From: Lachnospiraceae bacterium
Lineage (GTDB): Bacteria > Bacillota > Clostridia > Lachnospirales > Lachnospiraceae
Direction: 5' to 3'
Assembly: GCA_029054245.1 (NCBI GenBank)
Contig: JAIDFQ010000040.1
Location: 1 to 46,726 of the forward strand
Length of the DNA stretch: 46,726 bases
A program made the translations under genes and the position numbers. A model generated the notes under the pieces. It was not told the DNA's origin. It saw only the letters and a list, made by a program, of their open reading frames with translations, and made no database searches. Every line of letters starts with the position of its first letter. Positions within the stretch are counted from its first letter, which is position 1. Positions 11,585 through 15,748 of the stretch are shown piece after piece.

Positions 11585-11971
11585 TAGCTGCAGTTCCGCC
11601 TTCTGTAGAAAGCAGTGTGTGATGCGGGGACAGCCGGGCGTATGGTTGGTGGACGGACTTGGCACAGGCAGCATCACATAGAATCTTTTCGAGTCTCATC
11701 TCAAGAATCGGATTTCACTAGCAGAATGTGTTTACGTGTTTCAAAACGATCGGGTCGGAGCCAGCGGCATCCGTGCCGCCCGCTCCTAAAATCGCCATCC
11801 ATGGCGATTTTTCCCTAGTCATTCTACATTCTGCAAGAGAAATTGCCGATTTTTCACAGAGACTCGAAAAGATTCTATGTGATGCTGCCTGTGCCAAGTC
11901 CGTCCACCAACCATACGCCCGGCTGTCCCCGCATCACGTACTGTTTTCTGCAGAAGGCGGAACCGTTGCTA
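11585..11971 (+). repeat. Giant hairpin element, copy 1 (105-bp inverted arms around a conserved core)
   Basis: Bases 11593-11697 are the reverse complement of 11859-11963 over 105 positions with no gaps and four differences. In a plus-strand RNA all four become G.U or U.G pairs, so the whole stem still pairs. Outside the arms the pairing continues with mismatches to about 11585/11971. The arms enclose a core of 161 nt (11698-11858) that closely resembles the core of the second element at 15490-15651, while the arms of the two elements are unrelated. Each arm also has an internal inverted repeat (TGTGATGC near its outer part, GCATCACA near its inner part). I see no protein gene here and no target-site duplication. 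It may be a structured RNA, a mobile palindromic element or both. Confidence 0.85.
11707..11850 (+). ncRNA. Conserved structured core of giant hairpin copy 1
   Basis: Reading inwards, ATCGGATTTC and GCAGAATG (11707-11728) pair with CATTCTGC and GAAATTGCCGAT (about 11827-11850), with a two-base bulge and A.A mismatches. GGG (11752-11754) can pair with CCC (11813-11815). Two hairpins lie inside: 11757-11786 with stem GCGGCA/TGCCGC and loop TCCG, and 11789-11810 with stem AAATCGCCA/TGGCGATTT and loop TCCA. The invariant stretch GTGTTTCAA lies at 11736-11744. The arrangement looks like a junction RNA. Strand and function are inferred. Confidence 0.5.
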
Positions 11972-11973
11972 TA

Positions 11974-12654
11974 CTATAATAGGAACATGAGGAGCAGGAT
12001 GAGGTATGCTTTTTTTAAATCTCTGTTTACTAAAAGGAATACACAGCCAAAGGCAAATCCCAGAGCGGCGCCCATGATACCTGTAGCAAAATCTTTGGTG
12101 AGGATATGTCCCAGTCCCCAGGTGAGACCGCAGAGGATGCCGCCGTAAGGAAAGCCCTCCTTGTGGAACCACACTTCGCAGGCTTTTTGCCCAAATAGGA
12201 TGATCAGTAAAAACAGCATGGTTTCAAATGCATAGTAAAGATACTGAAAGGCAAACAGCAAAGGTCCCTTTCCGGCAAATTCCAGATACACCTTAAAACC
12301 GCCCCAGGAGTTGTAACTCTGCCAGAATGCAAGTGCAAGAAGCAGCAGGCACAGTCCCCACTGCCAAGGCTTTAACGGAGCGCCTTTCTTTAGCAGATCG
12401 AATTCATATCGCTGCCGCGCTTTCTTTATGAGAACAAAGGCAAAGATTCCCCATGTGGCGCAGGTGAGGCACCAGTGAATCATCGTTTGTCCGGAATTCC
12501 AGTTTTCCATGGTGGTTCCATAAAGGGCAGGCTCCAGCAGGAAGGCATAGAGAGCTTCCATTCCCAAACCTGCAAATGCATATAGTCCAAGATTGAGATA
12601 GCTGCTGCCTTTTATCCCTTGTTTTTTGCCCTCTGTTTCAGTTTGCTTTCTCAT
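11974..12654 (-). CDS. Multi-span membrane protein, possibly CPBP-like but without the full motif
   Basis: 226 residues from the ATG at 12654, which follows a GGGGG stretch. A longer frame to 12693 has no ribosome binding site. Six or seven hydrophobic segments are visible. WGLGHILTKD sits where CPBP intramembrane proteases have their second motif, but the EExxxR of that family is not convincing (AFETMLF only), so protease function is doubtful. It overlaps the DUF3021 gene upstream by 17 bp and ends two bases from the outer stem of the giant hairpin. As the third gene after LytTR and DUF3021 it is probably a target or partner of that regulator. Confidence 0.75.
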   Translation of the reverse strand: MRKQTETEGKKQGIKGSSYLNLGLYAFAGLGMEALYAFLLEPALYGTTMENWNSGQTMIHWCLTCATWGIFAFVLIKKARQRYEFDLLKKGAPLKPWQWGLCLLLLALAFWQSYNSWGGFKVYLEFAGKGPLLFAFQYLYYAFETMLFLLIILFGQKACEVWFHKEGFPYGGILCGLTWGLGHILTKDFATGIMGAALGFAFGCVFLLVNRDLKKAYLILLLMFLL

Positions 12655-13075
12655 TTTGATACCCCCGTATTTCTTCCAAAGCTTTGTTGGCATGTTTTAT
12701 TTCAAAAAAGAGTGAGACATAATAGATGATTGCACCAATGATATAGGGAATGGTGAAAGACAAGAACATATCCCTGTATGCGCTTTCATGCAGCGATTCA
12801 AAAAAGGAGGAAATCCATGTAATCAGCATGACAATGCCGATCAGCAGAAGATACTGCACCAGAATGACCAGTAAAAGAGGAAAATTTCCAAAACGATAAT
12901 GCTGGGAAAGAACAGCCACTGCAAGCACCGATAATAAAAGCATCAACAATAAATTCTGTTGATCGTTTCCAAATTTCCCTAGAACGATGGCTTCTAGGAT
13001 CACATTGCCAATTGACAGCAGGGTAAAACAGATACATATAATGGGGAAAAAATTTTGTTTATCAATCACTTTCAT
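12638..13075 (-). CDS. DUF3021-like four-span membrane protein
   Basis: 145 residues from ATG 13075, which has GGAGGT six bases upstream. The track-length frame to 13105 would lack an RBS. Four membrane spans are clear (about 8-32, 42-60, 65-92, 104-128), followed by a short charged tail. Genes of this size and topology next to a stand-alone LytTR regulator belong to the DUF3021 family, where the membrane protein is thought to control the regulator. It overlaps the LytTR gene by 14 bp and the next gene by 17 bp, so the three are one operon. Confidence 0.85.
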   Translation of the reverse strand: MKVIDKQNFFPIICICFTLLSIGNVILEAIVLGKFGNDQQNLLLMLLLSVLAVAVLSQHYRFGNFPLLLVILVQYLLLIGIVMLITWISSFFESLHESAYRDMFLSFTIPYIIGAIIYYVSLFFEIKHANKALEEIRGYQNEKAN

Positions 13076-13523
13076 GGCAAACCTCCTGTATATGATGCAA
13101 TGCATCCAAAAATGATTTTTTGTAGCTCCTGTTGAGAATCAGCGTCTCTCCGTTTTCCATTATAAGATGAAGCCTCATGTTGAAATCTGCTTTCACCTTA
13201 TTCACTTTGTAGATATTCACCGCCATGGACTTTCCGATTCTGACAAAGCCGCTGTTTTCAAAACATGCAAGGAAACTCCGCAGGCTGTAATCCAGCTGGT
13301 AGACTTCCTTTTTCTGATAGGCAAAGAGCTTTCGGTCTACCACTTCCAGATAATAGATACTGCCGGGATGCAGTTTTTGTACGCAGTCATCTTTTTTTCC
13401 CATGATGCTGTGCAGGGATAAGAAAAAATCTTTGACCAGCGCAATGGATTCGTTTTCTTCCCGGTAATGGACATCGACGTAATCCTCTTTTAATAAGGGC
13501 TCCTTTAAGTATTGTACTTTCAA
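13062..13523 (-). CDS. LytTR DNA-binding regulator without receiver domain
   Basis: 153 residues. The C-terminal LytTR domain (about 50-150) has IYYLEVVDRKLFAYQKKEVYQL, FVRIGKSMAVNIYKVNKV and LILNRSYKKSFLDAL. There is no receiver domain, so activity is probably set by the DUF3021 membrane protein. I choose TTG 13523 as start: an AGGAGG lies eight bases upstream, whereas the GTG at 13532 overlaps that Shine-Dalgarno sequence itself. Promoter elements and an inverted repeat lie just upstream (13547-13576). Confidence 0.88.
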   Translation of the reverse strand: MKVQYLKEPLLKEDYVDVHYREENESIALVKDFFLSLHSIMGKKDDCVQKLHPGSIYYLEVVDRKLFAYQKKEVYQLDYSLRSFLACFENSGFVRIGKSMAVNIYKVNKVKADFNMRLHLIMENGETLILNRSYKKSFLDALHHIQEVCHESD

Positions 13524-13546
13524 CGTGTGCACCTCCTATAACAGTC

Positions 13547-13576
13547 ATTATACAGAACAGACTTGAATTCACAAGT
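13547..13576 (-). promoter_or_regulatory. Promoter of the LytTR operon with inverted repeat over the -35
   Basis: On the minus strand, TTGTGA (13569-13574) and TATAAT (13547-13552) are separated by 16 bases. An inverted repeat ACTTG-6-CAAGT (13561-13576) overlaps the -35 hexamer and is a candidate operator. Confidence 0.6.
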
Positions 13577-13610
13577 ACTGTCTGCGCAAACTGCATGTGA
13601 GGCTGCTTAT

Positions 13611-13641
13611 CTTGCAATCTGGCAAGTGATTCTTTTATAAT
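13611..13641 (+). promoter_or_regulatory. Promoter of the ECF sigma operon with inverted repeat over the -35
   Basis: TTGCAA (13612-13617) and TATAAT (13636-13641) are 18 bases apart and face the sigma factor gene. An inverted repeat CTTGC-6-GCAAG (13611-13626) overlaps the -35, with the same 5-6-5 geometry as the repeat at the divergent LytTR promoter. Confidence 0.5.
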
Positions 13642-13721
13642 CATTTCTAAAATGTCACCTTCGTCCAGCTTTATACGTATTAGATGTATAAGAAGCAAGA
13701 AGACTTCAGAAGGGAGGAATT

Positions 13722-14186
13722 ATGTGCATAGAGGAACTGGTATTGAAATACAGCAACATGCTTTATAAAATTTGTATCGTTATGCTGTGCAACGAGCAGG
13801 ATGCAAAGGACGCCATTCAGGATACTTTCTGCAGATATCTGGAAAAGAGACCGGACTTTGCAAATGAGGAGCATGCGAAAGCCTGGCTGATCCGCGTAGC
13901 GTCTAATATCTGCCGGGACATGCTCCGCTTAAGGAGCCGGCATCCTAAGATTTCTATAGACGATTTGTCAAACTGCCTTGTAGCTCCGGCGCAAAGGGAG
14001 GTCCTTACAGAGTTGATGGAATTGCCGCCTAAGCAGAAGGCGGTGATTTATCTTCACTATGTAGATGGATACGGCGTAAAGGAAATTGCAGATATTCTGA
14101 AAATTACAGAAAGTGCAGTGAAAAAAAGGCTGCAGCGGGGCAGGGAATCTCTGCGGCTGTCATGGAAGGAGGATTATAGCAGATGA
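13722..14186 (+). CDS. ECF-type RNA polymerase sigma factor
   Basis: 154 residues. Region 2 (about 5-70) shows LVLKYSNMLYKICIVML, DAKDAIQDTFCRYLEK and AWLIRVASNICRDMLR. Region 4 (about 95-150) shows LMELPPKQKAVIYLHYVDGYGVKEIADIL and ESAVKKRLQRGRESL. Spacing and size are normal for the group. It overlaps the next gene by four bases (ATGA), and that gene encodes a membrane protein likely to act as anti-sigma factor. A strong AGGGAGG precedes the ATG. Confidence 0.93.
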   Translation: MCIEELVLKYSNMLYKICIVMLCNEQDAKDAIQDTFCRYLEKRPDFANEEHAKAWLIRVASNICRDMLRLRSRHPKISIDDLSNCLVAPAQREVLTELMELPPKQKAVIYLHYVDGYGVKEIADILKITESAVKKRLQRGRESLRLSWKEDYSR

Positions 14187-15358
14187 AGAACACAAAATTA
14201 AAAGAAACCATAGATCAGGTAAATATTCCAGAGGATATGCAGGAAGAAATCATGCAAAACCTCCGCAGGCTGGAAGGGCAGGGAAGGTATCGATATCATT
14301 ATAGATCCCATTTCATGAAGAAAAGTCTTCCGGCGGCAGCAGCGCTCCTTCTGGCAGTGGGAATCGTCAGCATTCCGGTTCAGGCAGGCATCCGCTATCT
14401 GGTAAAAGCAAGAATGGAAAGCATCCCCGCCGAGGAGATGGAAGAGACGCTTGAAATGCAGAAAAGCCAGACCGGCGAAGCGAATCTTTTTTCCAGGGAA
14501 TATTCTCAAGATGAGAAGCAGAGAATGGAAGCGCTTTTCAGGGCTTATCAGAAGGGGACCTTCCCTCAGGGACAAGTGCTTTTGGTGGAAACAGAAGATC
14601 AGGTGGTGGATGATACCCTTTGCTACCTAAAAAGTACAGGTTGTTTTTATCTCCCAGATCGAGAACTGACCGATGAGGAGATTCTGGAAATCATTGAATT
14701 TGAATATAAAAAGGAATACGCGCTGACATTTGAACCGGAAGTTCAGGCAGAAATGGAAAAACGCAAGGAGGAGCAAAGCGAGATCAGTGCTCAGGTACAG
14801 GCAAGTGGCGGCATCAGCGAAGCGGAGGCTGTTGCAGTGGCACAGGAGTGGATGAATGTCTTTTTCGGCGTATCCACTGATGGTATGGAAGAGACGATTT
14901 ATCTGGATGAGGAATGGTTTGATGTCCCTATCTATCATATTACTTATGAAATTCGGAGCGCTTGTTACTACTCTTTTTCCATTAGTACGATAGACGGCAG
15001 TATCATGTCTGTGGATGTAAGCATTGTATCCCAGCGGGATGCGCCTAAACTGACGGAAGAGCAGGCGAAAGCAGAAATGCAAAAAGGGTATCGGGATGTG
15101 ATGCGTTTTTTAAAAGAGCAGTTTGGAATCCAGGAAGAGTTTGAAAATATCTATTGTTTCTATATAGCCGAAGACGGAAAGCTGATTTCCAGCGATTTGA
15201 CTTACTTTTTAGAGAAAGCGGATGGAAGCTTTTATCGGGTTGCGTTTTACTATGATACCAATGAATTATCCGGTTATGCCTGCGTTACCAGTGACTCCTT
15301 CAAACAACAAAGGGAATGGGAAAATGCGGTAGTAGTGACTGTAGATTTAGAAAATTAA
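14183..15358 (+). CDS. Membrane-anchored protein, probable anti-sigma factor of the ECF pair
   Basis: 391 residues. A cytoplasmic N-terminus (1-47) starts with a helical segment TIDQVNIPEDMQEEIMQNL, followed by one membrane span (about 49-68, SLPAAAALLLAVGIVSIPV). The rest is extracellular and acidic, with two repeated alpha/beta stretches: one near 210-280 beginning ISEAEAVAVAQEW, another near 290-385 beginning LTEEQAKAEM, which look like PepSY-type folds. This layout is common for proteins encoded directly after ECF sigma factors in Clostridia. A zinc-binding anti-sigma motif is not seen. The gene ends 34 bases before the second giant hairpin. Confidence 0.75.
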   Translation: MKNTKLKETIDQVNIPEDMQEEIMQNLRRLEGQGRYRYHYRSHFMKKSLPAAAALLLAVGIVSIPVQAGIRYLVKARMESIPAEEMEETLEMQKSQTGEANLFSREYSQDEKQRMEALFRAYQKGTFPQGQVLLVETEDQVVDDTLCYLKSTGCFYLPDRELTDEEILEIIEFEYKKEYALTFEPEVQAEMEKRKEEQSEISAQVQASGGISEAEAVAVAQEWMNVFFGVSTDGMEETIYLDEEWFDVPIYHITYEIRSACYYSFSISTIDGSIMSVDVSIVSQRDAPKLTEEQAKAEMQKGYRDVMRFLKEQFGIQEEFENIYCFYIAEDGKLISSDLTYFLEKADGSFYRVAFYYDTNELSGYACVTSDSFKQQREWENAVVVTVDLEN

Positions 15359-15392
15359 AAACATGCCTCATAGCAGCTTTAAAGGGGGAGTA

Positions 15393-15748
15393 CTGGTTAC
15401 CGTTCAGAACGTAAGGGGCGCGGGAGGGGATGCGGGCGGAAAAATGGCATGGCATCCGGGGCAGCGCTTACGTTATCTTTGCAAGGCTCGTCTTCAAATC
15501 GGATTTCACTAACAGAATGTATAGAAGTGTTTCAAGACGTACGGGGGCAGAGCCGTGCGGCATCCGTGCCGCATGGCTCTTAATCCGGCATCCATGCCGG
15601 CTTCCCCTGGTGTCTCACCATTCTGTAAGTGAAATTGCCGATTTTTCGCCAGAGCCTTGCAAAGATAACGTAAGCGCTGCCCCGGATGCCATGCCATTTT
15701 TCCGCCCGCATCCCCTCCCGCGCCCCTTACGTTCTGAACGGTAACCAG
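15393..15748 (+). repeat. Giant hairpin element, copy 2 (perfect 97-bp inverted arms around a conserved core)
   Basis: Bases 15393-15489 and 15652-15748 are exact reverse complements over 97 positions. The 162-nt interior resembles the core of the element at 11585, but the arms share no obvious sequence with those of copy 1. Each arm contains its own inverted repeat AACGTAAG and CTTACGTT, matching the internal repeat arrangement of copy 1. The element lies 34 bases after the stop codon of the anti-sigma-like gene and ends 26 bases before the BlaI promoter. Short open frames within the arms are by-products of the palindrome. The first 14 bases inside the arm, GGTTACCGTTCAGA, recur at 32031. 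Confidence 0.87.
15497..15644 (+). ncRNA. Conserved structured core of giant hairpin copy 2
   Basis: ATCGGATTTCACT and ACAGAATG (15498-15519) pair with CATTCTGT and AGTGAAATTGCCGAT (about 15619-15642), leaving one A.A mismatch and a two-base bulge. GGGG (15543-15546) can pair with CCCC (15604-15607). Hairpin 15549-15580 has stem AGAGCC/GGCTCT plus TGCGGCA/TGCCGCA and loop TCCG. Hairpin 15585-15600 has stem CCGGCA/TGCCGG and loop TCCA. Compared with copy 1, stem bases change in pairs while loops stay the same. Confidence 0.5.

Follow-up and report, generated by a model that had tools for sequence, protein, structure and literature searches.

What are the two giant hairpins that interrupt a contig of a Lachnospiraceae bacterium, and what keeps their long arms paired? 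Both lie in a stretch of 46,726 nucleotides (GenBank assembly GCA_029054245.1, contig JAIDFQ010000040.1, positions 1 to 46,726 of the forward strand; hereafter the window), the first at 11585-11971 and the second at 15393-15748. We consider it fairly probable that both are non-autonomous, palindromic mobile DNA elements resembling miniature inverted-repeat transposable elements (MITEs), with an IS66-type transposase serving the young copies and with arm-to-arm copying of DNA keeping the arms paired. In what follows, the host genome (G000) is an assembly of 3.85 Mb in 80 contigs, labels such as G009 denote other genomes of the genus, and labels such as L022 denote loci. The parts of the two hairpins are as follows, with a strand given for cores and ends.

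11585-11697, no strand: left arm of the first hairpin, 113 nt, whose outermost ~18 nt match half of a small hairpin that G007 and G035 have here by itself
11603-11610, no strand: left copy of an apparent 8-bp target duplication, CTGTAGAA, 7/8 identical to the right copy (by eye)
11697-11860, minus strand: TwoAYGGAY core of the first hairpin (RF01731, 72.3 bits), two hairpins with AYGGAY loops
11859-11971, no strand: right arm of the first hairpin, 113 nt, 94% complementary to the left arm
11948-11955, no strand: right copy of the apparent target duplication, CTGCAGAA (by eye)
15393-15489, no strand: left arm of the second hairpin, 97 nt, 100% complementary to the right arm
15396-15407, plus strand: IS66/ISBst12-like end, GTTACCGTTCAG, 3 mismatches to a 21-nt end pattern
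15489-15651, minus strand: TwoAYGGAY core of the second hairpin (RF01731, 86.4 bits)
15652-15748, no strand: right arm of the second hairpin, 97 nt
15734-15745, minus strand: IS66/ISBst12-like end, the same motif on the opposite strand (21-nt end pattern)

The architecture agrees with the original prediction of two giant elements, each with long inverted arms around a core of about 160 nt: arms of 113 and 97 nt are separated by 161 nt in the first hairpin and 162 nt in the second. The two cores are indeed related, being linked by three direct-repeat blocks at 77–84% identity. The accompanying statement that the arms share no visible sequence is not confirmed: although BLAST at an E of 0.01 returns no match between the arms of the two elements, their inner ~16 nt look alike by eye (GAATCTTTTCGAGTCTC and TATCTTTGCAAGGCTC). 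Finally, an internal 8-bp inverted repeat had been described as common to the arms. The longest such repeat is 7 bp in the first element (P = 0.12) and 8 bp in the second (P = 0.017), and reaches P ≤ 0.05 in only 1 of 41 arms; we rejected it as a family feature because it stands at chance level.

The core belongs to a known family, contrary to the earlier view that none fits. An Rfam search with the full covariance model places both window cores, on the minus strand, in RF01731 (TwoAYGGAY), well above the gathering score of 43, and the family model, with its two AYGGAY-loop hairpins, is matched end to end. That model covers a core of 168 positions only and is typed as cis-regulatory; the long arms, the 8-bp duplications, and the copy number are features of the window elements that go unmentioned in the accessible parts of the RF01731 literature, where we also found no account of mobility. 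As far as the accessible part of the 2010 discovery table goes, TwoAYGGAY is entered there as probably an RNA, probably not cis-regulatory, from the human gut, gamma-Proteobacteria, and Clostridiales (PMC2864571). Core variants ~40 nt above the usual length occur at G009 C15:13903, G009 C5:43078, and G011 C41:8864.

The two hairpins have many relatives. The host genome contains 45 RF01731 matches, 44 of them above the cut-off, and these form a dispersed, non-coding set with terminal inverted repeats, as in MITEs: among the 45 copies, all of which were measured, 43 have arms of 33–170 nt that are 92–100% complementary, the exceptions being L036, with an arm of 12 nt, and L043, at a contig start. 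Of 37 genus genomes, 17 contain matches, the number per genome ranging from 0 to at least 53 (at most 55 candidates scored in each); matches are also present in 35 of 200 genomes of the family, and in 28 of 291 genomes of the class, where 20 are over the cut-off and 21 of the 28 have at least two matches (9 candidates scored per genome). Arms of at least 30 nt border 46 of 57 copies from other genomes. The class-wide search added 17 loci, and 8 of 16 copies drawn from them have arms of this length. Giant, near-perfect arms therefore characterise mainly the copy-rich lineage, and the core is widespread. Carriage by phages or plasmids was rejected, as the second core has no match in phage and plasmid collections; viral contigs gave one exact-pattern match. 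Copies less than 1 kb apart stand in minus-then-plus order in 15 of 16 pairs (4/4 in the host, 7/7 in G009, and 4/5 in G011), some of these sites being common to G009 and G011. The genomes are drafts and some contigs end at copies. Contigs also start at or within ~1 kb of hairpins or orthologous sites (L018, L022, L043, and G007 C9), so that draft copy counts may be low.

Sites without the element, which the original prediction proposed to look for in relatives, do exist. We compared seven host sites with G007 and G035, i.e. between species rather than between strains, and at three of the seven the element is missing from at least one relative, an insertion polymorphism of the kind seen with MITEs. 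Specifically, the flanks of the first window hairpin are 83–87% identical in G007 and G035 and hold only a short hairpin, CAGTTCCGCTTTCGGCAGAAGGCGGAACTG. In the window the first element is inserted within this short hairpin, bordered by CTGTAGAA and CTGCAGAA (by eye). Its originally drawn outermost ends (~11585-11602 and 11956-11971) match the small hairpin that stands alone in the two relatives. The hairpin L017 is absent from both relatives, while the pair L019/L002 is absent from G007, and G035 holds ~1.47 kb of other sequence there. The four remaining sites hold shared copies, decayed copies, or different elements.

The ends of young-looking copies read GTAAC[A/C]GTTCAG. The 21-nt end pattern was drawn from these same copies, and both ends are recognisable (6 mismatches or fewer) in 11 copies. 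The 8-mers flanking these 11 copies match at a mean of 4.18 positions, compared with 2.22 (standard deviation 0.49) when right flanks are shuffled, and 0 of 2000 shuffles reach 4.18. By copy, the match is 8/8 for L022, 7/8 for L039 and L042, and 1–5/8 for the other eight. A target-site duplication of a fixed 8 bp, again as in MITEs, is therefore visible at 7–8/8 in 3 of the 11 scorable copies, most copies being unscorable; L031, which has lost its left end and lies outside the 11, also matches at 8/8. With up to 2 mismatches on at least one end, the motif marks 12 of 43 host copies vs 4 of 164 background windows.

The same ends are found on autonomous transposons of the genus. Two loci with a single-ORF (open reading frame) IS66-type transposase, L200 (478 aa, PF03050 at 1.7e-38) and L202 (485 aa, PF03050 at 4.7e-20), share the ends GTAACTATTCAG, and L202 is bordered by an exact 8-bp duplication, AGGAATTA. 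For ISDge4, which is assigned to the ISBst12 group of IS66, the accessible part of its description gives the ends GTGACTACTCAGCA and GTAACTGCTCAGCA together with an 8-bp repeat (PMC12898284). In their ends, then, some copies also match a known family, the ISBst12-type IS66 transposons, with which they have in common the GTAAC..TTCAG termini and the 8-bp duplication; the window-type element differs in its lack of a transposase gene, its very long arms, and its unrelated interior. Among the IS66 loci examined, the GTAAC..TTCAG end is confined to L200, L202, and the fragment L205. The IS66 element L186 was rejected as an end match, having GTAAGCG-type ends. PF03050 itself is detected in 21 of 37 genomes of the genus, the host included. 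Judging from these termini, an IS66-type transposase probably moved the young copies; a DDE transposase of ISBst12 type would have acted in trans, at a minimum on young copies of type I. We restrict the IS66 link to young type I copies, because the ends are missing from most copies and some copy-rich genomes give no IS66 match. In other genomes, GGGTGTCAAAAGG or GTGTCAAAAGG takes the place of these ends in some copies. The outer arm ends of L055, L087, L046, and L047 all contain GTGTCAAAAGG, perhaps a second kind of end.

Comparison of copies at the same site reveals how the arms evolve. Copy A (G000 C69:30527) has counterparts at the same position in both G009 and G035, whereas for copy B the counterpart is in G035. 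Between the host and G035, the flanks of both copies align and the cores align moderately; the arms differ greatly, each pairing with its own partner, and copy B of G035 has an extra block present in both arms. For a copy-by-copy comparison of G009 and G011, 47 of 49 and 39 of 39 matches, respectively, were cut out. These gave 29 flank-match rows, of which 17 are adjacent and were taken as orthologs, the others mostly reflecting partner elements where copies lie in close pairs; one further ortholog pair, for a total of 18, rests on the neighbour and the outer arm rather than on the flanks. All but one of the 18, which has no arm in G011, were scored after 4 outer and 12 inner columns had been trimmed.

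Across the 17 scored pairs, 881 columns are unchanged and 78 are unpaired, while 101 substitutions appear in both arms, so that 101 of 179 changed arm columns are both-arm substitutions (53 transitions and 48 transversions). Such paired substitutions occur in 13 of the 17 pairs. Gaps comprise 15 paired events (106 nt) and 13 unpaired columns. Right flanks are 91–98% alike in 15 of the 18 pairs, and cores are 95.7–99.4% alike in 13, 92% in two, and 79–81% in three; from these identities, the arms change faster than flanks and core in most pairs. The complementarity of the arms may be maintained where hairpins are extruded, by template switching or by intramolecular conversion. Either process would turn one-arm changes into two-arm changes, letting arm sequence drift fast with pairing kept. 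One of the two readings offered originally, a palindromic mobile element that renews its arms by fold-back copying, is supported by the empty sites, the 8-bp flank duplications, and the both-arm changes in orthologs. An all-against-all comparison of arms finds 70–94% likeness in a subset of copies; the idea that arms are drawn from other copies was rejected, relatedness beyond the inner ends being limited to that subset in this arm-to-arm comparison.

Several observations weigh against the mobile palindrome. Two of the large paired gaps (the C7:11506 and C9:22758 pairs) are shortened arms rather than internal indels; 4 of the 17 ortholog pairs have no paired substitution, one of them with 9 unpaired; and 2 of the 17 have cores only 79–81% alike, one without an alignable flank. 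Leaving out these two pairs by subtraction gives 730 unchanged, 75 paired (41 transitions, 34 transversions), and 68 unpaired columns. The second window hairpin has a flank match of only 5/8, and its site is not empty in relatives: G035 and G007 (L317/L318) carry a different element of ~178 nt with GTAACAGTT ends, in which no RF01731 core is evident by eye. The pair L005/L026 (copies A and B) is common to the host and G035, with a contig break in G007. At the L009 site, G007 retains only a stump of an element end and G035 has two other copies, and at the L029 site (L122:18018-18490), G007 and G035 (L145 and L150) have no core and both retain an arm-like remnant, ACAGGCGACAGCGTAT..TCGTTTC (by eye). 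Given the stumps, remnants, and shared pair, not every difference is a fresh insertion. IS66-like ends mark a minority of copies, i.e. the 12 of 43 in the host, 4 of 47 in G009, and 6 of 37 in G011 (background windows in the latter two, 2 of 178 and 2 of 140). The flanks of L200 have no exact 8-bp duplication, the PF03050 loci examined in the host (contigs C66, C23, and C3) have no end within 1 mismatch, and G011 and G028 have no PF03050 match despite 39 and 36 copies. Outside the copy-rich lineage, arms are mostly 30–80 nt and often only 70–90% paired, with exceptions up to 264 nt. Lastly, 35 of 37 predicted core pairs show double changes in an alignment of 52 chosen cores from many genera (alignment A2), a pattern usually read as RNA.

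This covariation, which the original prediction proposed to look for, lends weak support to its other reading, a structured RNA. On that view the hairpins would be transcribed, possibly as a CsrA-binding decoy, with arms and stems under selection for RNA pairing. We judge this unlikely. If selection on a transcript kept the pairing, G-U mismatches should be common on the transcribed strand; in arms and core alike they are scarce and show no enrichment on the proposed RNA strand. Arm mismatches number 36 G-U to 47 A-C in the host, 36 to 52 in 49 copies of G009 and G011, and 8 to 16 and 55 to 69 in two sets of other copies, which sum to 135 against 184, slightly disfavoring the Rfam strand. The core stems scored, i.e. 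the two hairpins minus two poorly aligned pairs plus, for 45 of the 52 cores, the basal stem, contain 1338 Watson-Crick, 25 G-U, 16 A-C, and 77 other cells, so that G-U makes up 1.8% of paired cells; the basal stem has 9 G-U to 10 A-C, though the second hairpin has 13 to 5. In folded cores, G-U amounts to 2–3% on the Rfam strand and 4–6% on the complement, compared with 10% in thiamine pyrophosphate (TPP) riboswitches of the same genus, a small control from one family only (27 aligned of 30 fetched). The Rfam strand also folds no better than its complement (P = 0.14 and 0.33), the complement folds better in G009 and G011 (P = 0.0007), and TPP riboswitches fold better on their own strand (P = 0.019). 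All these strand-based counts may be affected by short-read assembly, which can set a core between perfect arms in either orientation. That 48 of the 101 paired arm changes are transversions likewise speaks against selection on RNA. Taken together, the scarcity of G-U and the both-arm changes make DNA-level copying the most economical reading, and on this comparative evidence the pairing is most likely copied in DNA.

In the core, one strand shows conserved loops and linkers, which may reflect selection on sequence for a binding partner. Paired GGA hairpin loops, as expected of a CsrA-binding RNA, are present, at least two per core being found in 33 of 44 host cores, 54 of 86 cores of G009 and G011, and 33 of 52 cores of A2 (overlapping sets); no GGA hairpin loop occurs on the complement strand of the cores in these sets. 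A motif study, in its accessible part, proposed CsrA binding for TwoAYGGAY (PMC4333381). Genes for CsrA occur in 33 of the 37 genus genomes whatever their copy number, the host included; the copy-rich genomes G005 and G035, at 89% and 86% completeness, gave no CsrA match. This distribution neither excludes nor supports the CsrA idea. A broader proposal, which we put forward tentatively and think rather doubtful, is that TwoAYGGAY as a whole is primarily a mobile palindrome and not an RNA gene, that its covariation stems largely from arm-to-arm copying, and that it spreads paired GGA loops through Clostridia, seeding CsrA-binding decoys where transcribed. If true, covariation alone can mislabel mobile DNA palindromes as structured RNA.

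Gene surroundings bear on the RNA and on another explanation, that the hairpins are large bidirectional terminators or protectors of mRNA 3′ ends repeated by chance, which appears highly improbable. The first window hairpin does have convergent ORFs on both sides and is enclosed by a small terminator-like hairpin, but the empty site retains that small hairpin without the element. Moreover, a simple ORF scan finds a nearly even mix of gene orientations next to the copies, a point against both explanations: copies between two gene starts number 9 of 43 in the host, 12 of 47 in G009, and 6 of 37 in G011, with similar frequencies for the other arrangements. We give little credence to movement by a different route (REP/RAYT-like, i.e. 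repetitive extragenic palindromes with their associated transposase, a reverse transcriptase, or other), with IS66-like ends coincidental or added later. The absence of such ends from most copies, the alternative ends in other genomes, and the copy-rich genomes without an IS66 match favor it, but young copies share 8-bp flanks together with GTAAC ends, and the autonomous IS66 elements of the genus carry the same ends.

As mobile palindromes, the window-type elements stand apart from Correia, RUP, and Yersinia MITEs in that their arms are longer than a transposase would be expected to require, vary among copies, and match within a copy. They resemble those bacterial MITEs, as far as the accessible part of a published account describes them, in being short, dispersed, non-coding, and bounded by inverted repeats (PMC2229807). 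Both-arm substitutions that preserve pairing are also known from nematomorph mitochondrial palindromes, for which template switching was proposed in the available text; those palindromes lie within coding genes and are not mobile elements (PMC6649704). Template switching makes and mends hairpin stems, with double changes and jumps of several bases that leave the pairing intact, and the stems concerned in the accessible part of that work are from rRNA and microRNA, vs mobile-element arms of ~100 nt here (PMC8794818). Each ingredient is known, and the combination is that of a known RNA-family core on a MITE-like element whose arms are unusually long, match each other, and change fast. We found no description of it in a mostly open-access literature on TwoAYGGAY, on MITEs or inverted repeats in Lachnospiraceae, on IS66 MITEs, and on MITEs in Rfam. 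The mobile palindrome offers a way to explain an RNA family that has been on record since 2010 with no known function. Its arms of ~100 nt, present in many orthologs, could also serve as a natural system for measuring how far template switching preserves pairing. A practical test to tell DNA palindromes from structured RNAs is suggested as well, based on G-U scarcity with strand symmetry and on mirrored arm changes.

Two minor features of the arms were also recorded. The outer end of the right arm of L021 consists of near-tandem repeats of a CTGGTACAGT-TATAA unit, such as slippage or repeated copying might leave. The 5′ arm of host copies is purine-rich on either strand, with 1092 G, 786 A, 798 C, and 493 T among paired columns.

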